This document shows, one piece after another, positions 5,299 to 56,895 of a DNA stretch of 58,368 nt. The stretch covers positions 1-58,368 of IMG/VR virus record IMGVR_UViG_3300049259_000040. One strand, written 5' to 3'. Position 1 is the stretch's first letter; each line of letters opens with the position of its first letter. Under the pieces are notes generated by a model. The model saw only the letters and a program-made list of their open reading frames with translations. It was not told the DNA's origin and ran no database searches. This DNA comes from a virus. A program made the position numbers and the translations under genes.

Positions 5299-6126
5299 GT
5301 GCAGACGTTCTATCTCGGCGCTCATCGATACAACTGGGCATGCGACGGGCTGACCGACCAGTCGCTGTTCATCTCTGACCGCACGTTGCGTCGTCGTGTG
5401 ACTCCGTTCGCGCCGGCAGTTACGCGATGGGCGCTAGATAGCGGCGGCTTCACCGAGCTCTCGCAGAACCGATTGTGGACGGTTTCGCCTGCCGAGTACG
5501 CGCAACGTGTACGGCGCTACCAGCGCGAGCTTGGACTGATGGACTTCGCGGCGCAGCAAGACTGGATGTGCGAACCCGAGATGCTTGCGCACAATGGCCT
5601 ATCGGTCGTGACCCATCAGTCGTGGACGATCACCAACTACCTTGAGCTCCGCGAGCTCGCGCCGGAGGTGCCGTGGGCACCGACGGTGCAGGGGTGGAGC
5701 CTTGGTGACTACTGGCGCCACGTTGAGGAGTGGTACCGACGAGGTGTTGAGCTGCACGCGCTGCCTGTTGTCTGCGTGGGGTCGGTGTGCCGCCGAGAGA
5801 ATCCGGCTTCGGCCGCTAACATCTTGTCTTCGCTCGCGGCTGATGGACTCTCGCTCCATGCGTTCGGGGTCAAAGCTGAAGTGCTGGCGTTATGCCATGA
5901 GCAGATTCAGAGTTCTGACTCGATGGCCTGGTCAACGCACATGCGAGCCGAGCGTAATGCCGCAAAGAAAGCCGGGTTGCCGTACAAGCACCTCGACCCG
6001 AACAGCCTCACGTGCGGTCTGCAGTGGGTGGATAAGACAATCAATCGCGCCCGCGGCATCGGGCAGGTTGAGACGGATTGCCAAGACGAAACGGGTCAGC
6101 TTGAGATGTTCGAGGCTGCGTGCTGA
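5299..6126 (+). CDS. dpdA: DpdA-like deazapurine DNA transglycosylase (TGT fold)
   Basis: A 275-residue protein of the tRNA-guanine transglycosylase superfamily, most like the phage DpdA proteins that exchange guanine in DNA for a 7-deazaguanine base. Seen directly: ALDSGGFTEL at residues 45-54, the family DSGGF motif with the catalytic Asp (D47); a second conserved Asp in AAQQDWMCEP (D88); VVCVGSVCRR (157-166), a base-binding loop signature; LHAFGVK (186-192); and SSDSMAWS near 205-212, in the position of a TGT active-site Asp. Start is GTG with AAGGG upstream; the ATG two bases earlier is out of frame. It has its own promoter. No folE/queD/queE/queC-type precursor genes are in the genome, so precursor would have to come from the host. 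Known family members give resistance to host restriction. A standalone tRNA enzyme is less likely because the protein is short and lacks the TGT zinc site. Confidence 0.85.
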   Translation: MQTFYLGAHRYNWACDGLTDQSLFISDRTLRRRVTPFAPAVTRWALDSGGFTELSQNRLWTVSPAEYAQRVRRYQRELGLMDFAAQQDWMCEPEMLAHNGLSVVTHQSWTITNYLELRELAPEVPWAPTVQGWSLGDYWRHVEEWYRRGVELHALPVVCVGSVCRRENPASAANILSSLAADGLSLHAFGVKAEVLALCHEQIQSSDSMAWSTHMRAERNAAKKAGLPYKHLDPNSLTCGLQWVDKTINRARGIGQVETDCQDETGQLEMFEAAC

Positions 6127-11550: not shown

Positions 11551-11786
11551 GCCTTGTGACTATCATGGTCAGCCCGCTCTGGCGTGCGCAGATCGAAGCT
11601 GGCTCGACCGAGGTCGCTTCGATGCAGATGCGTGGCTACAAGGTCACGTACAACCCGTACGTGCCTGCGTATGCTCCGCTCGGTCGACAGCCGATGTGGA
11701 AGCGTGTCGCCCGCGCGTTGCGACTCATGAAACCGGCCAAGCGTCAGCCGCAGGTGTTCGTGCTGCCCGAGGAGGTGACGCTATGA
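11547..11786 (+). CDS. Hypothetical protein
   Basis: A 79-residue basic protein (MSLVTIMVSPLWRAQIEAGS). Start fixed by ATGA overlap; good GAGGAGG site upstream. No known family. Confidence 0.55.
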   Translation: MSLVTIMVSPLWRAQIEAGSTEVASMQMRGYKVTYNPYVPAYAPLGRQPMWKRVARALRLMKPAKRQPQVFVLPEEVTL

Positions 11787-12028
11787 GCCTTGCAAACAAA
11801 GGGCGCGACGACAGCGCCATCGACCTCGCGTACGACCCCGAGGAGCGCGTGTACGTGTGCGCCAAGTGCAGCCTGAGCGGTGACGTTGACGCGCGTCTGC
11901 CGCATCCGCAAGCAGCGCTCGAACACGTCGCGATGCACATGGTGAGCGGCGATAGCGTGCCCGAGTACGTGGGTCAGACGCTCCAGGGTGATGATGAAGT
12001 TTGGCAGTACCGGAAGGTCGAGGAGTAG
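11783..12028 (+). CDS. C2H2-like zinc-finger protein
   Basis: An 81-residue protein with CAKCSLSGDVDARLPHPQA then HVAMH, matching the C-x2-C ... H-x3-H spacing of a classical zinc finger, followed by an acidic tail. It lies three bases before the metacaspase gene and might be co-regulated with it. DNA-binding is inferred. Confidence 0.6.
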   Translation: MSLANKGRDDSAIDLAYDPEERVYVCAKCSLSGDVDARLPHPQAALEHVAMHMVSGDSVPEYVGQTLQGDDEVWQYRKVEE

Positions 12029-12031
12029 ACG

Positions 12032-12838
12032 ATGGCCAATGGATTTTCGCTTCACGTCGGGCTCAATAGCGTAGACGCGCGCCACTACGGTGGATGGGAC
12101 GGCGCTCTGTACGGCTGCGAGAACGACGCCAACGACATGGCGACCGTGGCAGCTGATGCAGGCTTCGCGCGCCAAGTCATCCTGCTGACGAAAGACGCGA
12201 CCGCTGCGCACGTGCTCGCGACGCTGCGAAGCTACTGCCAGATTGCGAAGCCTGGGGACACGGTGCTGTTCACCAACAGCTCGCACGGTGGCCAGCTGCC
12301 CGACGAGAACGGCGACGAAGCCGACCACGCCGACGAGACGATTTGCACTTACGACCGGGAGGTCTGTGACGACGAGCTCGCGGCCGTGTGGTCGCTCGCG
12401 AAGCCCGGCGTCCGCATCCTGACTGTCAGCGATAGCTGTCACAGCGGCACAGTCGTGCGGCTGATGCCGACTCCCGGCAACCTGATGCGCGAGTCTCGCG
12501 AGATGCACCCAGCTGTCGCCCGCGCGACGTACGAGCAGAACCGCGACGTGTACGATCCCATCCTGCGTGACCCCGGACTGCGCGAGTACCGCGGCCAGAT
12601 TCAAGCGTATGTGCTTCATTTAGGCGCGTGCGCTGACAATCAGACCAGCTTCGATGGCAGCGTGAACGGTCTGTTCACCGAGAAGCTGCTCGCCGTGCTC
12701 AAGAAAGAGCCCAAGTCGTACGGTGACTTGGTTGCGCGCGTGCGGCGCTTGATGCCGTCCGACCAGACGCCCGAATACCGCTACGCAGGCCCGCGCTGCC
12801 CAGCGTTCGAGGCGAGCAAGCCGTTCAGCATCACATGA
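12032..12838 (+). CDS. Phage metacaspase / caspase-fold peptidase (C14 family)
   Basis: A 268-residue single-domain caspase-fold protein. Visible signatures in order: first strand and loop FSLHVGLNSVDARHYGGW (residues 5-22); GALYGCENDANDM (24-36), the L-x-G-C-xx-D-A segment of bacterial caspase-family proteins; TVLFTNSSHGGQ (77-88) with catalytic His85; RILTVSDSCHSGT (128-140) with catalytic Cys136 in the DSCHSG motif typical of metacaspases; and acidic residues around 91-111 that could form the calcium or P1-pocket region. Both dyad residues are present, so it should be an active cysteine peptidase cutting after Arg or Lys (family knowledge). No prodomain or signal peptide, so cytoplasmic. 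Neighbours are small accessory genes and, 555 bases downstream, the terminase. Possible roles: virion-protein processing, host take-over, or counter-defence. It could also be cargo conferring a lysogen trait. Confidence 0.88.
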   Translation: MANGFSLHVGLNSVDARHYGGWDGALYGCENDANDMATVAADAGFARQVILLTKDATAAHVLATLRSYCQIAKPGDTVLFTNSSHGGQLPDENGDEADHADETICTYDREVCDDELAAVWSLAKPGVRILTVSDSCHSGTVVRLMPTPGNLMRESREMHPAVARATYEQNRDVYDPILRDPGLREYRGQIQAYVLHLGACADNQTSFDGSVNGLFTEKLLAVLKKEPKSYGDLVARVRRLMPSDQTPEYRYAGPRCPAFEASKPFSIT

Positions 12839-13113
12839 CAACTCCCAACAACGTCAAAGTCTACTGGTCAAAGTTCCAAAAGTCTGGGCTGGCGTGGCGC
12901 GTGGTTGTCAGGCAGCCAGATGGCTCCGACACGCTTCTGGAGATTCGCTCGCCGAAAGATAGCGACCTCAACGTTCACACGCAGTGGCTGAGCGACCAAG
13001 TGCTAGAGCGCGTCTCCGGAACGCTAGCCAGCATGGACCAAGCAACATGCGCGTTGGACAGCGAGTGGCCGCCCGAATACCTGCCACTGAAAGAGGTCGC
13101 CGACAAACCATGA
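12835..13113 (+). CDS. Hypothetical protein
   Basis: A 92-residue beta-rich protein (NVKVYWSKFQKSGLAWRVVV near the start, then DTLLEIRSPKDSD). The ATG overlaps the metacaspase stop by four bases, so it is co-translated with it and could be its partner, substrate or inhibitor; this is inference from position only. Confidence 0.6.
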   Translation: MTTPNNVKVYWSKFQKSGLAWRVVVRQPDGSDTLLEIRSPKDSDLNVHTQWLSDQVLERVSGTLASMDQATCALDSEWPPEYLPLKEVADKP

Positions 13114-13394
13114 CCAAGAAGCAATCGGTCAAAGAGCGCTTGGCGGAGTACATCGAGCCGCATCTCAAGCCAATGGTCACCGTGGTTGCGACCGTGGCCT
13201 ATCAGCCCGGGCGCGGCGCGATGGCGCAGATATCCGCAGCGGCGCTGCTCATCAAGACGGCGATCGAGTGCGACGAGAAGTCGGTCGAACTCACCGAGGA
13301 GCAACAGACGCGCGTCACGAGAGCGGTCGACATGCTCGAGCTAGAGCGCGAGTACCAAGAGCGCCGCGAGCGCGGTGAGTACGGCGTGTCCTGA
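13110..13394 (+). CDS. Candidate small terminase subunit
   Basis: A 94-residue helical protein whose stop shares a base with the large terminase start. Position directly upstream of terL, small size, a basic N-terminal helix (KKQSVKERLAEYIEPHLK) and a C-terminal charged coiled-coil-like helix (RAVDMLELEREYQERRERG) fit a terminase small subunit. Sequence alone does not identify the family, so the call rests on context. Confidence 0.4.
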   Translation: MTKKQSVKERLAEYIEPHLKPMVTVVATVAYQPGRGAMAQISAAALLIKTAIECDEKSVELTEEQQTRVTRAVDMLELEREYQERRERGEYGVS

Positions 13395-15199
13395 TGGAAG
13401 TTGTCGCCGCCAAGTCGCTGAGTAACAAGGAGGTCGTCGACGCCTTTTGGCACGGCGGCAACCTCAAGTTCCTCATGCACGACGGGCAGAGGCGCTGCCG
13501 CGACCAGATTCACGCTTGGCGAGCCATCGACCAGAACTCGGACACGCACAGTCTAATCGCTGGCAGCATGCCGCGCGTCTTCTGCGTCGCGAAAGCCGGC
13601 CGCTTCGGCGGGACAACGCTGTTGCTCTGGATCATGGCAGAGCTGCAAGTGTGGTTTGCCGAAAAGCACAAGCGCCCGATGTTTCTGCGCTTCACCTCGG
13701 CTTGGCAGAAGTCCATCGACGAGATTATCGGCGCGATCGTCCCGCAGTGCTTCGAGACGGCACCGCCCGAGTGCAGGCCTCAATACTTCGGCAAGCGCGG
13801 CACCAAGCCCGCTGGCCTGTACTTCCCAGTCTACGGGCCGATGAACGGCGGCAGCATCGCGCTCGCTGGTCTCGACATGAACCCGGACGCGACGCGCGGT
13901 CAGGCAAGCGATGGCGACGTCGTGTCCGAAGCGGCGTTCGTCAAGAAGCTCGATTACACCCTGCGCTCGGTCCTCTATCGCCAGTACCAGGGACGACCTT
14001 GGGCTCGCGCGTTCATCGAGAGCAGCGCGCCGAAGGACCTGCACACCGACTGGGAGCGCATCTACGTCCCTGACTGCAAGATGCGTGGCGCGTACTTCTC
14101 CGCGACGATCGAGGACAACTCGCGGCTGTCTCGCGCCGAGAAGGACGCGTTCATCTCGGCGGCCGGTGGCCGTGGCAATGCCAACTGCGAGCGCGAGTAT
14201 TTCAACGTCATCAGCGGCGACCCGCAGAAGCGGGTGTTTCCAGAGTTCGAGCCCGCGCAGTTCGTGCGCGACATGCCGCGACCCAAGCACGCCTACGCGC
14301 TCGCTGGCTTCGATCCCGGCTTTCGGCACCTATTCGGCGCGCTGTGGGCCTACTACGACTTCGAGCGCGCAACGATCGTGGTGCAGGACAGTTGGGCAGG
14401 CTCGAACGCCTCGACCGCCAAGGTGGCGTGCATCACAGCCGCTCGCGAGTACAGCCTCTACGGCGCGCTGCCTCCGATGTCGCTGTCGTTCATCCCTCTC
14501 GAACGCGACGACAATCGGCTCGGCTGGCGAGACTACCTGCGCGGCGATCGGTGTGAGGAGCTGGCTGACGACTTGTTCGAGCTGTCGACTATGGCGCCGA
14601 TCGATCGCCCCGACTACGAGCACCGGCCGGGTAAGTTCGTGCGCTTCGATCGGCCTGGACAATGGACGTACTACGACAACGTGTCGCGTCACGAGTTCAT
14701 GCCGAACCCCGAGACGCGCGTTGCCGACGTCGACCTGAAGCTCATCGCTGACATGCGTGAGACGTTCGGGTTCGACTTCCAGACGACGACCAAGGAAACG
14801 TTGCGCGGCATGGTGAACAACGCGCGTGCGTGGTTCTCGCAAGGTCGCATCGTGTTCTTGCCAGACTGCGGTCCGGTGATCGACCACGTGCACGCGGCGC
14901 AATGGGCCGATGACGGCAAGAAGCTCGACGAGCACAGCGTCTATGGTCACTACGACCTTGCGGCTGCGCTGACCTACGCTATCCGCTACTTCGCGCTGAT
15001 CGAGAACCTGAACCCGATGCCGCCAGTGGGCGTGATCGAGTCTCGCGATCGTCCCGGCGCAGTCGTCGAGCGCATGCCGTGGCAAACGACGCTCCCGCAC
15101 GAACTCGAAGTAGACCGACGCATCGAAGCCTTTGAGGCTGAACTCGCCGCCGAGCGCGGCAGGATGCGCGACCCCGTGAGAATGAGGCCATTCAAGTGA
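13394..15199 (+). CDS. terL: Large terminase subunit (packaging ATPase/nuclease)
   Basis: A 601-residue protein that translocates DNA into the prohead and cuts it. N-terminal ATPase: CVAKAGRFGGTTLLLW (residues 64-79) is a deviant Walker A in which the lysine sits early (K67), as in lambda gpA, rather than before the Thr. The likely Walker B is GDVVSEAAFV (about 174-183), keeping the catalytic Glu but with Ser where Asp is usual. C-terminal RNase-H-like nuclease: LAGFDPGFRHLFG near residue 297 supplies the first Asp, and HYDLAAALTYAIRY near residue 518 the last Asp. Full length for the family. Followed without gap by small genes rather than directly by the portal. Confidence 0.93.
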   Translation: MEVVAAKSLSNKEVVDAFWHGGNLKFLMHDGQRRCRDQIHAWRAIDQNSDTHSLIAGSMPRVFCVAKAGRFGGTTLLLWIMAELQVWFAEKHKRPMFLRFTSAWQKSIDEIIGAIVPQCFETAPPECRPQYFGKRGTKPAGLYFPVYGPMNGGSIALAGLDMNPDATRGQASDGDVVSEAAFVKKLDYTLRSVLYRQYQGRPWARAFIESSAPKDLHTDWERIYVPDCKMRGAYFSATIEDNSRLSRAEKDAFISAAGGRGNANCEREYFNVISGDPQKRVFPEFEPAQFVRDMPRPKHAYALAGFDPGFRHLFGALWAYYDFERATIVVQDSWAGSNASTAKVACITAAREYSLYGALPPMSLSFIPLERDDNRLGWRDYLRGDRCEELADDLFELSTMAPIDRPDYEHRPGKFVRFDRPGQWTYYDNVSRHEFMPNPETRVADVDLKLIADMRETFGFDFQTTTKETLRGMVNNARAWFSQGRIVFLPDCGPVIDHVHAAQWADDGKKLDEHSVYGHYDLAAALTYAIRYFALIENLNPMPPVGVIESRDRPGAVVERMPWQTTLPHELEVDRRIEAFEAELAAERGRMRDPVRMRPFK

Positions 15200-15869: not shown

Positions 15870-16268
15870 ATGACTAATGACCAGGTATGGGCACTGTTCG
15901 AGCGTATGCAGGGCGAGATCGCCCGAGAGATTCGAAACCTACTGGGCGAGCCGCCCTATGATCAAAAGCTATTCGACGACGCGCAGCGCACGCGGCGCGT
16001 CGAATCGCTGAAGATTGTAGCGGCTGACCCCAGGAGCGAAGCAGAGCGTCATGAGGCGTGGCGTGAGCAGCATGTCGCGCTTGGCTGGACGCAGGGGGCG
16101 GAGTTCAAGCCGGAGATCAAGCAGCACACCAATCTAGTGCCGTTCGATCAACTTCCCGCGACCACGCAGAGCAAGGTCCGCATCTTCGACATCGTGGCGA
16201 AGTATGCGCAGGCAATCGTCCAAGACGAGGCTGAATACAAGACAGAGTATCCGTCGGAAGGACTTTGA
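15870..16268 (+). CDS. RyR-domain protein
   Basis: A 132-residue protein. Residues about 55-115 match the RyR domain (PF02026) pattern: E-R-H-E-A-W-R, then GWTQG, then K-Q-H-T-N-LVPFDQLP, then a helix beginning TTQSKVRIFD. RyR domains occur as stand-alone or fused modules in many phages and bacteria and are thought to bind a small ligand, possibly a nucleotide derivative. Here the copy is single and lies between terminase and portal, so it may be a minor virion or infected-cell protein. Ligand unknown. Confidence 0.65.
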   Translation: MTNDQVWALFERMQGEIAREIRNLLGEPPYDQKLFDDAQRTRRVESLKIVAADPRSEAERHEAWREQHVALGWTQGAEFKPEIKQHTNLVPFDQLPATTQSKVRIFDIVAKYAQAIVQDEAEYKTEYPSEGL

Positions 16269-21737: not shown

Positions 21738-23084
21738 ATGGCGTCATTGGCTAACGTCAATGGTCTTTTCAAGCAACGTTACGGCCGCTGGATCGAGCCG
21801 CTTCCCGACGAGCACACGCTCGCGGACTTCGGCGACTTCATCCCGGCAGAGGCGCGTCCCGGCCTCGGCTACAACTTCCCGATCCTGAGTGCGATCGAGC
21901 ACGGTCAAACGGCCGACATCTCGGGCACTGCGTTCGCGCTGAACAGCGCGATCGACTCGAACGTGAAGAACGCGAACTTGGATGGCTCGACCATCATGTT
22001 GCGCGCGTCGATCCCGTACGACGTCATCTACAAGTCGTTGAACGGCACCGGCCAAGGCAACCAAGGCGGCGCGTTCAAGACCGCATTGGACCAAGCGGTC
22101 CAGGCGATGCTGATGGGCGCTGGGCTCTACCGCGAGCTCGCTCTCGCGTACGGCCCCGGCAGCAGCACGACGCTCGGCAGTAACATCGGCGTCGTCAACA
22201 GCATCACTGCTGGGACGAACGTCTCGGCGAACCTGACGATCTCGCTCACGCAGTCTTCGTGGATTCCAGGTCTCTGGATTCTCGCGCAGAACATGCTGAT
22301 CGACCTGTTCAACGCAGCCGGCACCACGCTGCAGTCGAACGGGCTGAAGGTCGTGGGCCGACCGGACCCGTCGAAGGCTCAGATCACCATCATCGCGACC
22401 GCTGCGACGACCACGGGCGGCACGTTCGTCCCTGTGGCTGGCAACGTGATCGTTCCGTACGGCTGGTTCAACAAGTCGTGCGTCGGCCTCGAAGCCATCT
22501 ACAACAACACCGGCACGCTGTTCGGTATCGACGCTTCCACGGTCGCTCCGTGGCGCGCGAACGTGTTCAGCGCCGGCAACGCTGCCCTGACTCGCGCGAA
22601 GATCATGTCTTACTGCGCGATCATCTCCATCAACGGCACGAAGAACGGAGGCAGCCTGTTCGTCAGTGCGCCGACGTTCGCCGCGCTCGCTGAGGAGTTC
22701 AACTCGGTGATGACGCCGTCAGCTTCGGGCATCGCCAGCGTCACCACATACGACGGCAACAACAACAAGCGTAGCAAGGAAATCGGCTCGTCCGAGCTTG
22801 CCTACGTGACCGCCGCTGGCGTGGTGAAAGTCGTCGTCTATCAGTACATGAAGCAAGGCGAAGCCTTCTTCATCGCGAACGACAACTTCCGCCGCGTGGG
22901 TTCGACCGACCTCACGATGCGTCCGATCGGCGGCGGCGCGGAAGCGTTCTTCCTGCAAGCGCCGAACAACGCGGGTGCTGAGATTCGTATCTACAGCAAC
23001 CAGGCTCCAGTGTTCGAGATGCCCTACCGGAACTTCCTGGTGAACAGCGTCGTCAACACCGGCTACGACGTGCCGCCCGTCTGA
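21738..23084 (+). CDS. Major capsid (coat) protein
   Basis: A 448-residue protein following the scaffold gene and preceded by its own leader with a strong ribosome site; length is close to P22 coat (430). N-terminal helix-turn (LFKQRYGRWIEPLPDEHTL), long beta-rich middle with many Gly, Thr and Asn, and a compact C-terminal domain ending YRNFLVNSVVNTGYDVPPV. A GC hairpin follows at 23099-23123, which would separate coat mRNA from the rest. No motif proves the HK97 fold, but order, size and composition do. Confidence 0.82.
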   Translation: MASLANVNGLFKQRYGRWIEPLPDEHTLADFGDFIPAEARPGLGYNFPILSAIEHGQTADISGTAFALNSAIDSNVKNANLDGSTIMLRASIPYDVIYKSLNGTGQGNQGGAFKTALDQAVQAMLMGAGLYRELALAYGPGSSTTLGSNIGVVNSITAGTNVSANLTISLTQSSWIPGLWILAQNMLIDLFNAAGTTLQSNGLKVVGRPDPSKAQITIIATAATTTGGTFVPVAGNVIVPYGWFNKSCVGLEAIYNNTGTLFGIDASTVAPWRANVFSAGNAALTRAKIMSYCAIISINGTKNGGSLFVSAPTFAALAEEFNSVMTPSASGIASVTTYDGNNNKRSKEIGSSELAYVTAAGVVKVVVYQYMKQGEAFFIANDNFRRVGSTDLTMRPIGGGAEAFFLQAPNNAGAEIRIYSNQAPVFEMPYRNFLVNSVVNTGYDVPPV

Positions 23085-41476: not shown

Positions 41477-42532
41477 TCAACCCGTTCTACCGTCTTTCTG
41501 TCGCATAGTTGCGACACCGCTCGATGCCTTCAGTCGCGGCAGCGCGTTCGCGGCTTCGTGCAGGTGGTCGCTTCGCTTCGAAACGTTGGCGTAAACAGAT
41601 TCGAGCATCTTCACGCTGTTGCCCATCATTTTGGCCAGCGTGAGGATCGGCACTCCAGCGCGTGCGAGTGCTGTGGCGTAGCTTCCGCGCAGGTCGTTGA
41701 CGCTGATGTCGTCGTCGAGCCCAGCGCGCTTTGCTGCCCGCTTCAACGTCTTGTCGATGTTCGGCTTGTGCTTCGGCGCGAACCCGCACCAGCCCGAAGC
41801 TCGTAGCGGCAGAAGTTCGGAGAACAGCTCGTCCGGGATCGGCACCCAGCGCTTCGAGCCTTTGGTCTTCGTGCCGTTCACGAAGACGTAGCGGCCTTCC
41901 CAATCCACCTCGGTGATCTTCCACGGCTCGCTCGCTCGCAAGCCGAGCTGCAGATACGCCTGGAAGTACAGCTTCAGGTGAGTCGGGATGGCGAGCAGCA
42001 GCGTGCGCTGGTCGTCAGCCTCGATCACACGTTGCGGCTTGTGCGTGATTTCGCCGAGGTCGGGGAACTTCGGCGGCGTCATTCCCACTGCCTTGAAAGC
42101 TTGCCCGAGGCAGTTCAGCTCTCGGTGCGTCGTCCATGCCGTCTTGGTCTTGCGGCTCTCGATGCAGAACGCTCGCACCGCGTCTTCGTCGATGTCGGCG
42201 AGCTGCTTGTCGGCGCCGAAGTGAACGACGAGTGTGGCGCTGCGATACATGATGTGGTCGTGCGTTGACTGCGACTTGCCGGCTAGCTCGGCCGCCGCGG
42301 AGAGCGCTTTGAGCGCTTGTTTGAGTGTTTTGCTTGGGCGCGCTGCAGCTTCGCCTCGAGTCGCGAAGCTACGTTCGATATCTCGCGCGATTCCTTCTGC
42401 GGTCTGTCGGGATTTTGCTGTGCCGTCGTCTCTGACGCCTGTCGACTTGGCGACTCGCCGCCGTTGGGTGCCATCCCAGAAGTGAACCCAGCATTGCCAG
42501 ACATCTGATTTTTGCCGTCTGAAGAGCTCCAT
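41477..42532 (-). CDS. int: Tyrosine recombinase integrase
   Basis: A 351-residue integrase that would insert and excise the prophage. N-terminal part with VWQCWVHFWDGTQRRRVAKS fits an arm-binding domain, residues 70-165 a core-binding domain. Catalytic residues visible: R199 in LGLRASEP, K224 in TKTKGSK, R282 in VNDLRGSY, nucleophile Y314 in ESVYANV. Two usual His positions are replaced: Asn279 where box II normally has His, and Asn305 in MMGNSVK where His or Trp is usual, nine residues before Tyr. Start with AAAGGGG site. Its first 250 bases overlap the excisionase-like frame. Active enzyme likely but chemistry at these sites deserves testing. Confidence 0.85.
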   Translation of the reverse strand: MELFRRQKSDVWQCWVHFWDGTQRRRVAKSTGVRDDGTAKSRQTAEGIARDIERSFATRGEAAARPSKTLKQALKALSAAAELAGKSQSTHDHIMYRSATLVVHFGADKQLADIDEDAVRAFCIESRKTKTAWTTHRELNCLGQAFKAVGMTPPKFPDLGEITHKPQRVIEADDQRTLLLAIPTHLKLYFQAYLQLGLRASEPWKITEVDWEGRYVFVNGTKTKGSKRWVPIPDELFSELLPLRASGWCGFAPKHKPNIDKTLKRAAKRAGLDDDISVNDLRGSYATALARAGVPILTLAKMMGNSVKMLESVYANVSKRSDHLHEAANALPRLKASSGVATMRQKDGRTG

Positions 42533-43187: not shown

Positions 43188-43428
43188 CGATGCCTTCTCC
43201 CGTTGCTAGCTGTTGCGTGAACTGCTCTTCCATGAACTGCTCGTACTGACGCAGCTCGGTCTCCGACACCTCGATCTCGTGCTCTTGCAGCGCTGCCATG
43301 TACTCGCTCATCACAGCCGAGAGCGGCACAGGCTTCGTCTCCACCACTGCCGGCTTGCGGTACTGCTGGCGACCAGCGAAGCACACGTGAGAGCCGTGCA
43401 TCTCTTGGCGGCATTTGAAGCACTTCAT
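43180..43428 (-). CDS. Small Cys-containing protein
   Basis: An 82-residue protein starting MKCFKCRQEMHGSHVCFAGR, a CxxC-H-C zinc knuckle, followed by a helical acidic region (ELRQYEQFMEEQFTQQLA). Four-base overlaps on both sides. Function unknown. Confidence 0.6.
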   Translation of the reverse strand: MKCFKCRQEMHGSHVCFAGRQQYRKPAVVETKPVPLSAVMSEYMAALQEHEIEVSETELRQYEQFMEEQFTQQLATGEGIDE

Positions 43429-43775
43429 GGCTTGTCCTTCAACGTCGTCTCGATCATGACCGCCGCGGCTCTCAGCGCGGACGCCGTGGCCTGCGCGATG
43501 CGCATCTCAGCGGCTGGTCGTACGTCGACCAGCCAACCATCCGCCATCTCGCGGAGCGTCGCAGGCATCTCGTCCACACGCGCGAGCTTGGTTTTGAGTT
43601 CTGTAACGCATCGATCGTCGAACTCCAGCCACGCAGCGAATGCTTGGGCCTTGCCAACGTCGACCGCAGCATCCACCGCACCGCGCAATCGGCGCACTTC
43701 GCACGCCAGCGGGTCAATGCTCGACGCCTCGGCTAGCGCGCTCTCTACTTCGTCTCGTGATGGGATGTACGTCAT
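43425..43775 (-). CDS. Coiled-coil accessory protein, family A
   Basis: A 116-residue protein. Its first 40 residues (MTYIPSRDEVESALAEASSI then DPLACEVRRLRG) are nearly identical to the protein at 45888, and the 90 bases encoding them are a near-perfect DNA repeat (43691-43780 and 46295-46384). The rest contains KLARVDEMPATLR and ends TTLKDKP, the family ending. Duplicated accessory gene of unknown role. Confidence 0.65.
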   Translation of the reverse strand: MTYIPSRDEVESALAEASSIDPLACEVRRLRGAVDAAVDVGKAQAFAAWLEFDDRCVTELKTKLARVDEMPATLREMADGWLVDVRPAAEMRIAQATASALRAAAVMIETTLKDKP

Positions 43776-45469: not shown

Positions 45470-45891
45470 ATGGCCTCAGCCTTGTCAGCGACCTCGTTGG
45501 CCGCTGTGTTCGGCCGACGGATGCGCGGCTTGCCCTTGTCGCTGCGCTCGACACGCGGCTTGCGTACCTTCAACTTCGCTAGTTGCGCTTCGTCGAGCAT
45601 ACCGAGCGCGCGCTCCTCCGCAGCGAGCGCTGCCTTTTTGGCGGTCACCTCGGCGCGCAGACGCTTCTGGCAATCGAAAGCGAGCTCGCGGGCGAACTGC
45701 AAGCCCTCGGCGTCGAGGTCCTCGAACACGATCTCTAGGTTGTGGCGTTTCTCATCTGTCATCATGTCGTCTCCTTCATCGGCGCGGCACCAACGTGTGC
45801 CGTTCCAAAAGTCGTCACCGTCATCGCGGCCGTACATCGTCTCGTTCGCGTCAGCTGCCCAGTCGACGCTCAGGTGTTGGTCCGGCGTCAT
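45466..45891 (-). CDS. Hypothetical coiled-coil protein
   Basis: A 141-residue protein. N-terminal 40 residues are acidic with GDDFWNGTRWCRADE; then a helical region (LRAEVTAKKAALAAEERALG) and a very basic end (KVRKPRVERSDKGKPRIRRP). ATGA overlap with the gene upstream sets the start at 45891, although MMTDEKRHN further in is an alternative. Confidence 0.55.
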   Translation of the reverse strand: MTPDQHLSVDWAADANETMYGRDDGDDFWNGTRWCRADEGDDMMTDEKRHNLEIVFEDLDAEGLQFARELAFDCQKRLRAEVTAKKAALAAEERALGMLDEAQLAKLKVRKPRVERSDKGKPRIRRPNTAANEVADKAEAI

Positions 45892-46379
45892 GGCTCGTCT
45901 TTCAGCGCTGGGCGTACGTATCGGCCGGCCGCGAGCGAGTTCGCACGTTCTTCCTCAAGCTCATCACGCAGCCGGCGCACTTCGGACTCAGCGTCCAGCG
46001 CGCGGACTTGGTACTTATCCGCCTCGTCGTGAGCGCGTTCCAGGCGTCTCGCGGCATCGTTCAGCGCGTCATTTAGTGCCCGGAGAGCCTCCTTGTGCTC
46101 GTCACGGGCTTTGATATCGCATGCGTCCCTCAACGCGGCTTCGAGTTGGAGCGCAGCGCCGGTCCAATCGTCGCCGATGATTCGCGCCTTCCATTTGTCA
46201 GGCAGCGCCTCGACGCGCGCGAGCTTGGTTTGCAGCTGATAGAGCTGCTCGTGCGTTTCTCCTGCGCGCTCTTCGCCGTCAAGCTGACGAAGCCGGCGCA
46301 CTTCGCACGCTAGCGGGTCAATGCTCGACGCCTTGGCAAGCGCGCTCTCTACTTCGTCTCGTGATGGGATGTACGTCAT
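45888..46379 (-). CDS. Coiled-coil accessory protein, family A
   Basis: A 163-residue protein with the duplicated N-terminus MTYIPSRDEVESALAKASSI, then a long coiled coil (RALNDALNDAARRLERAHDE ... EVRRLRDELEEERANSLAAG) and an ending ALKDEP. It contains the KLARVEALPDKWK block shared with 40885 and 43425. A longer version of the family with an inserted coiled coil. Function unknown. Confidence 0.65.
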   Translation of the reverse strand: MTYIPSRDEVESALAKASSIDPLACEVRRLRQLDGEERAGETHEQLYQLQTKLARVEALPDKWKARIIGDDWTGAALQLEAALRDACDIKARDEHKEALRALNDALNDAARRLERAHDEADKYQVRALDAESEVRRLRDELEEERANSLAAGRYVRPALKDEP

Positions 46380-56048: not shown

Positions 56049-56450
56049 ATGTCGCGTCAGCCACAGCTGGTCCGAGAGATCGAGACGCGCAAGCGCATCG
56101 AGGAGACGCACACGCACGAGCGCTTCTTCGAGCAGCCGCGCACGCGCATGGACGTCGGCGTTCACGTCCTGTTCGGCGCTGTCCGTGGGTTCGTTATGTT
56201 CATCGTCGCGACCACGCGCTACCTAGTCTTGCCGGTGGTTGGGTTCACCACGCGCTTCAGCTTGCTTATGGTCGCTGATGTTGCAGTGTTCACGACGGCT
56301 CGCGTGATGCTCAACTTGGAGCGCGCGGCCGACAAGAAGTGGCCATGGCAGCTGCGAATCCTCGACGAGTGGTCGGGTGGCGAGCTGCCAGAGTCGATCG
56401 AAGTAGAGGCGAGGCTGTTGCCCGCAGGAGAGAGCGACGATGACAACTGA
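56049..56450 (+). CDS. Candidate holin (two membrane spans)
   Basis: A 133-residue protein. Hydrophilic N-terminus (residues 1-35), then two close hydrophobic segments (FGAVRGFVMFIVATTRYLVL; RFSLLMVADVAVFTTARVML) and a charged C-terminus. Its ATG is two bases downstream of the previous gene's stop, and its stop overlaps the endolysin start by 11 bases. Position directly before the endolysin makes it the better holin candidate of the two. Not recognised by sequence. Confidence 0.55.
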   Translation: MSRQPQLVREIETRKRIEETHTHERFFEQPRTRMDVGVHVLFGAVRGFVMFIVATTRYLVLPVVGFTTRFSLLMVADVAVFTTARVMLNLERAADKKWPWQLRILDEWSGGELPESIEVEARLLPAGESDDDN

Positions 56451-56895
56451 CAGAGTAGCGATCACGGAGGCGATTCCACTCTGGTATTCGATCGCGGCAG
56501 CAGAACTCGGCGTGCACGAGCTCGCTGGCGTGACGAACACCGCGCGCATTCTCGAGTACCACGCGACCACGACACTGCACGCGAACGACGATGAGACGTC
56601 CTGGTGCTCTTCATTTTGTAATTGGGCGCTGATGCGCGCTGGCATCCACGGCACGAACAGTGCTGCAGCGCGCTCATGGGCTACGTGGGGCGTTCCATTG
56701 CAGCTTCCGAAGCTCGGGTGCGTCGTGGTGCTCGAACGCCCAGAGGCGGGTCCTAGCGCTGGCCACGTTGGCTTTTTCGTGCGAGCGAGCGAGGACGGCA
56801 AGACGGTTCACCTGCTCGGCGGCAATCAAGCCGGGAAGGTGTGTGGAGCGGACTACCCAGCGGCGCGAGCGATCGCGTACCGCTGGCCGAAGTGA
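56440..56895 (+). CDS. Endolysin (TIGR02594-type, CHAP/NlpC-like)
   Basis: A 151-residue protein. IPLWYSIAAAELGVHELAG, TSWCSSFCNWALMRAGIHGT with catalytic-type Cys in SWCSSF (about residue 52), GHVGFFV with the catalytic His (about residue 109) and HLLGGNQAGKV match the TIGR02594 family of small amidase/peptidase-like phage lysins. No signal peptide, so export via a holin is expected. It would cut peptidoglycan at the end of infection. Unusual place in the genome: in the early operon next to replication, not after tail genes. Confidence 0.78.
   Translation: MTTDRVAITEAIPLWYSIAAAELGVHELAGVTNTARILEYHATTTLHANDDETSWCSSFCNWALMRAGIHGTNSAAARSWATWGVPLQLPKLGCVVVLERPEAGPSAGHVGFFVRASEDGKTVHLLGGNQAGKVCGADYPAARAIAYRWPK

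Follow-up and report, generated by a model that had tools for sequence, protein, structure and literature searches.

The window, that is, the whole stretch of 58,368 nucleotides analysed here, is an IMG/VR virus record that carries a tyrosine integrase gene (41477-42532, minus strand; PHROG 2.3e-34, Pfam 1.3e-13), indicative of a temperate lifestyle, together with a gene for a stand-alone metacaspase of the GSU0716 type (Peptidase C14) at positions 12032-12838 of the plus strand. The latter is a single intact frame with an ATG start, encodes 268 amino acids and begins 3 bases past the preceding ORF within a long same-strand run, no promoter-like match being found at its start, so that the metacaspase looks co-transcribed with lytic genes. 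The preceding ORF (11783-12028, plus strand, 81 amino acids) does show the CxxC...HxxxH arrangement of a possible zinc finger that the initial annotation had pointed out, but it matches no Pfam or PHROG family, its link to the protease finds no support and a role as regulator was set aside. In the case of the 92-residue ORF whose start overlaps the metacaspase stop by 4 bases (12835-13113, plus strand), the ORF call is sound, but a function as partner or inhibitor of the protease finds no support: neither Pfam nor PHROG recognizes the ORF, no homologue was detected in the other phage metacaspase loci, and overlaps of 4 bases are ordinary in the window (24 of 88 same-strand gene pairs). Further downstream on the plus strand lie the inferred large terminase (13394-15199), which lacks a Pfam or PHROG match of its own and is therefore named by position and by homologues in the phage family (a relative's terminase has the Walker A motif GRQVGKTF), the major head protein (21738-23084; PHROG major head protein 1.8e-7, and relatives), which together with the terminase serves as family marker, and a CHAP endolysin-like protein (56440-56895; Pfam 1.3e-7). 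Searches for RNA families and tRNAs returned none. Two minus-strand genes of the window (43425-43775 and 45888-46379) have nearly identical starts (MTYIPSRDEVESALA...SSIDPLACEVRRLR), and judging from these sequences the pair is probably a recent partial duplication.

The membership of the protein in the caspase superfamily is supported at several levels. Pfam Peptidase_C14 (PF00656) matches it with 1.9e-22 and 80.5 bits (cut-off 21.4), and a full-length alignment with GSU0716 of Geobacter sulfurreducens (PDB 3bij) gives an E value of 7e-58 and 44% identity. An AlphaFold2 model obtained from an alignment of 44 related sequences reached a mean pLDDT of 91.5 and a pTM of 0.90, and in the Foldseek/VIA structure matches this model superposes on 3bij with a Z of 38.7 and 2.0 Å over 261 residues, followed by Arabidopsis metacaspases (Z 24.6-26.7) and then by caspases (about 19), so that the match of the predicted structure to the caspase fold is far beyond chance. 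The features of the GSU0716 type are likewise present, namely homology along the whole length, a single domain and conserved CExDAxD, DNQxSxDG and QTP blocks. The initial annotation, made from the letters alone, had thus placed the ORF exactly, and its reading as a caspase-fold protease, for which it had proposed structure prediction and a C14 fold search as a check, agrees with the profile, the homology and the model.

The catalytic machinery appears complete. The metacaspase (C14B) dyad pattern HG...DSCHS is provided by His85 (NSSHGGQ; codon 12284-12286, plus strand) and Cys136 (SDSCHSG; codon 12437-12439, plus strand), neither of which varies among the 64 phage relatives or the 31 cellular ones. 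The His85 motif was absent from every search pattern used to collect these relatives, and the Cys136 motif was present in just one of them, which 10 relatives, differing at the next residue, could not have matched. Random drift of the two residues among close relatives, which had been named as grounds for abandoning the initial reading, is therefore not observed, and the initial description holds in that the protease stands alone, its dyad is intact and the phage is temperate. The published S1-pocket residues of TbMCA2, C92, D95, S156 and D211 (PMC4357240), align with C29 and D32 (C29-x-x-D32, 12116-12127), S83 (12278-12280) and D134 (12431-12433) of the window protein, all on the plus strand, and these predicted pocket positions are conserved in 62-64 of the 64 phage relatives; such an intact acidic S1 pocket leads to the prediction of cleavage after Arg or Lys. 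The calcium site is different. TbMCA2 uses four aspartates, D173, D189, D190 and D220 (PMC4357240), the first three of which correspond, through the alignment of Yca1, to D101, D113 and D114 (within 12332-12373, plus strand), conserved in 56-62 of the 64 phage relatives, whereas the fourth is replaced by R143 (12458-12460, plus strand), which leaves the four-Asp site incomplete. A basic residue, R or K, is also usual at this position in the relatives, being present in 54 of the 58 phage proteins scored and in 29 of the 31 cellular ones. Because GSU0716 is likewise basic here, R143 bears on the use of Ca2+ and not on C14 membership, and with Arg or Lys at the fourth ligand nearly throughout, Ca2+ dependence is not to be assumed; the residue itself suggests that it is weak or absent. 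The idea of a Ca2+-gated activation following holin opening is weakened by the same replacement, found in almost all prokaryotic members. Finally, the active site in the crystal structure 3BIJ is occupied by a self-peptide, IRYRA, lying over the catalytic residues (PMC3881575), and the loop that matches it in the window protein contains R156 (12497-12499, plus strand), which aligns with the Arg of IRYRA and is nearly invariant in an alignment of 14 sequences, making this loop a likely site of self-blocking or self-cleavage.

The closest known counterpart, the uncharacterised GSU0716 (3BIJ), coincides with the window protein in fold, dyad, pocket and stand-alone single-domain organization, and differs from it in having a longer loop after the catalytic Cys, SGHGGQ in place of SSHGGQ, and a location on a bacterial chromosome, whereas the window copy resides in a phage and clusters with the copies of two related phages, L003 and L045, in a separate phage clade. 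With TbMCA2, Yca1 and Arabidopsis MC4/MC9 the protein has in common the C14B catalytic core, the dyad and the acidic S1 pocket; unlike these eukaryotic metacaspases, it shows neither a prodomain nor the long type II linker, besides the Arg at the fourth Ca2+ ligand. Virus-encoded caspase folds are also found in giant eukaryotic viruses such as Yasminevirus and medusavirus (BFVD), although these caspase-domain proteins are just 8-24% identical to the window protein and fall outside its subfamily. The megaphage record LR745208, which is unannotated, also encodes a stand-alone C14 protein, but it is 33% identical and of another subgroup (GCVNDA type). The caspases of bacterial conflict systems (PADLOC 'caspase', NCBIfam EACC1-associated caspase) share the C14 domain, but they are usually multi-domain proteins with partners, in contrast to the single domain seen here. 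The NCBIfam model NF047832 (EACC1-associated caspase, cut-off 140 bits) did not match the window protein and left the L045 protein far below its cut-off, while in PADLOC the 'caspase' profile matched the window protein with 1.9e-8 and other systems gave only scattered weak matches in the window.

Capsid and terminase homology places the window phage in an undescribed podovirus-like family of 11 IMG/VR records, whose named members are the window, L003, L045 and L159-L168. L003 and L045 share with the window the terminase (47% and 36%, respectively), the inferred portal (46% and 27%), the head protein (59% and 41%) and further genes, and a head-protein scan recovered ten relatives of the window, these two among them; the sole GenBank phage approached by the head protein was a distant Silvanigrella phage record (23.5%). 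A terminase homologue is present in 11/11 family records, whereas the C14 gene occurs in 3/11 (window, L003 and L045); some of the eight records devoid of it may be fragments, but three of the eight are 66-75 kb long. Moreover, the three copies occupy unrelated positions: before the terminase in the window, at a DnaB-like helicase and adjoining replication genes in L003, and overlapping the end of the CHAP endolysin gene in L045. This carriage is that of a mobile accessory gene and not of a core morphogenesis protease, and it bears directly on the suggestion, already made in the initial annotation, that the enzyme would trim virion proteins as a prohead protease. A gene upstream of the terminase and a cysteine protease able in principle to trim head proteins would suit that role; a prohead protease would nevertheless be a family-wide gene of the head module, while here 8/11 records do without the gene and its position is untied to head genes, so virion maturation was rejected on distribution and is regarded as highly improbable. 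The placement beside the packaging module holds for the window, but in relatives the slot upstream of the terminase is a variable accessory site with short genes and, in places, a Dam-like methylase or a radical-SAM-like protein (assigned by sequence). In L172, L173, L156 and L177 this pre-terminase slot holds methylase-like or radical-SAM-like genes instead of a metacaspase.

Phylogenies of the protease and of the capsid tell different stories. In the metacaspase tree the copies of the window, L003 and L045 are monophyletic (98/98), L003 and L045 being sisters (100/97), while in the head-protein tree L045 groups with L167 and L166 (100/100), apart from L003, which groups with L159-L161 and L164 (93/98). 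This conflict fits an exchange of the gene inside the phage family and its retention by selection, and it argues against a fresh pick-up from a host as well as against a role in head maturation. An inactive passenger of host origin, retained by chance, could in principle account for a patchy distribution, as phages often pick up host genes, but the catalytic and S1 residues are conserved over 64 divergent phage copies, the deep phage clade holds members at 47-50% identity and the reading frame is undamaged, which together leave very little room for such an explanation.

Phage metacaspases are rare in reference collections and recurrent in uncultured ones. When three different phage metacaspases served as tblastn queries, a single one of 50,697 GenBank phage records matched, an uncultured phage of 485 kb, and PHROGs hold no family that represents these proteins, one family of unknown function weakly matching 6 of 18. 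Nearly all the predicted viral structures in BFVD sharing the fold belong to giant eukaryotic viruses. Profile scans of IMG/VR contigs, on the other hand, yielded overlapping sets of 46 and 65 loci, and, once near-copies were removed, 64 distinct phage metacaspases with the dyad present in all. In these viral contigs, scans with the lone window metacaspase or terminase found no relative, and alignments of at least two sequences succeeded. Two host-like records (L049 and L082) and some short ones were counted as metacaspases and excluded from the whole-record hydrolase searches described below. Most of the proteins are single domains of 245-330 residues, and short hydrophobic or amphipathic N-termini were noted by eye in several of them (L045, L058, L063 and L130). 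The protein family is therefore already known, and it is its carriage by phages as a distinct, repeated and mobile accessory gene that appears to be undescribed in the literature searched, where no report of a phage-encoded metacaspase was found, which does not prove its absence from the literature. Intact caspase-type proteases thus recur in uncultured phages, yet they are represented by a single GenBank record in 50,697 and by no PHROG family, as would befit a neglected enzyme class.

Across unrelated phages, metacaspases tend to sit beside lysis genes, frequent neighbours being endolysin, holin-like and lipoprotein genes. Small membrane proteins or lipoproteins make up 19% of the neighbours within two genes on either side and 10% of those farther off (64 loci; p 7e-5, permutation <1e-3), and the loci fetched once the idea existed gave 16% versus 9% (p 0.06). 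Peptidoglycan hydrolases of six different families were found within about 2 kb of the metacaspase in seven unrelated phages, namely SLT (L056), NlpC/P60 (L064), GH108 (L078), muramidase (L098), GH25 (L107 and L111) and amidase (L145); the corresponding p of about 1e-4 is optimistic, as the choice of families was guided in part by neighbours already seen. In L045, the CHAP protein whose gene end is overlapped by the metacaspase belongs to TIGR02594 (1.3e-22), and the CHAP protein of the window is 39% identical to it by tblastn. Not all the genomes follow this pattern: a hydrolase is present but distant from the metacaspase in L050, L076, L125 and the window, where no lysis gene is nearby (the CHAP gene starts at 56440) and none of the four nearest neighbours is membrane-like. 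A similar association is seen among cellular relatives. In a Deinococcus plasmid protein the metacaspase is fused to a peptidoglycan-binding domain (read from the sequence), in a Palleronia plasmid a peptidoglycan-binding/CHAP-like gene, its CHAP-like part also read from the sequence, lies directly behind it, pSymA of S. meliloti carries it in company with a C1 peptidase and a member of TIGR02594, and in R. ruizarguesonis a chitosanase and an L,D-transpeptidase are near it. From these observations it could be proposed, with considerable doubt, that caspase-type proteases take part in host killing by phages of many kinds, as the protease arm of the lysis module, paired with peptidoglycan hydrolases and linked or fused to them in bacteria too.

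Caspase-type proteases have been studied as host weapons, in cell death and in anti-phage defence. A question posed by the link with lysis and cell-wall hydrolases in phages and bacteria is whether the phage enzymes kill or open the host or rather disarm its defences. The latter possibility, a counter-defence protease that would cleave a host anti-phage component or a host death effector, is the strongest of the rival explanations, and a tentative case can be made for it. The gene is mobile, patchy and located in variable slots, although such slots gather accessory genes of every kind. Genes of the Acb2/Tad1 hairpin-domain type lie adjacent to the metacaspase in L045 (8909-9130, minus strand, 73 amino acids) and two genes away in L077 (7111-7320, plus strand, 69 amino acids); Acb2 and Tad1 are nucleotide sponges in the known cases, but this company is kept in just 2 of the 64 loci and is absent from the window. 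The window itself encodes DpdA, for 7-deazapurine insertion into DNA (5299-6126, plus strand; Pfam PF23859 4.2e-54), which suggests that the phage DNA is modified and suits a phage facing restriction. Just after the terminase and 3 kb downstream of the metacaspase, it also encodes an RyR-domain protein of 132 amino acids (15870-16268, plus strand; Pfam PF02026 5.3e-7), which may be a counter-defence gene by analogy with a phage RyR-domain protein reported to degrade Thoeris signals (PMC13232231). Against this reading, the literature searched yielded no known example of a caspase-fold protein that a phage uses for counter-defence.

The opposite role, in which the protease of a lysogen would stop competing phages or kill the infected cell, as in prophage-borne defence or superinfection exclusion, seems unlikely. 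The phage is temperate, caspase-type effectors are known and the PADLOC 'caspase' profile does recognize the window protein; besides, the metacaspase of L004 lies near SIR2-like and PHP/ATPase-like genes (by sequence only), and effector-like neighbours accompany some cellular relatives, further bacterial copies adjoining patatin-, TIR-, CHAT- or C1-peptidase-like genes as in conflict systems. However, the window gene looks co-transcribed with lytic genes, the L045 copy overlaps the end of an endolysin gene, and neither a sensor domain nor a partner is conserved.

The preferred interpretation, to which we assign a probability of about 0.5, is that the metacaspase of the window, of GSU0716 type and predicted to be competent, belongs to a phage clade and persists as a mobile accessory gene, and that during infection it most likely cuts host proteins after Arg or Lys and does not mature virions. 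The protease would be produced as part of its polycistron and held inactive by the loop that contains R156; self-cleavage near this residue, as the likely switch, would open the enzyme towards a target that could be either an envelope or a cytosolic protein of the host. Members encoded in lysis cassettes would likely help to kill or open the host late in infection, whereas for the window copy, with no lysis gene in its neighbourhood, only the broader role of a host-directed protease is claimed. Triggering host death, blocking it or cleaving a defence component, the other jobs offered in the initial annotation, are all possible.

Two further observations concern the relatives of this enzyme. 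The metacaspase of L116 (7893-8762, plus strand) has an N-terminal lipoprotein-like signal (MTRFTQLMVMMGFCAVMVGC), recognized by eye, which suggests an envelope location for some phage metacaspases. Finally, in the plasmid clusters L180 (1117-5840), L181 (3927-8645), L179 (4917-6521) and L178 (889-2411), metacaspases of the GSU0716 type are paired with cell-wall hydrolases or peptidoglycan-binding domains, with a C1 peptidase in the cluster of L180 and a C25 peptidase farther along in L181, and these four clusters could represent a candidate bacterial effector system.
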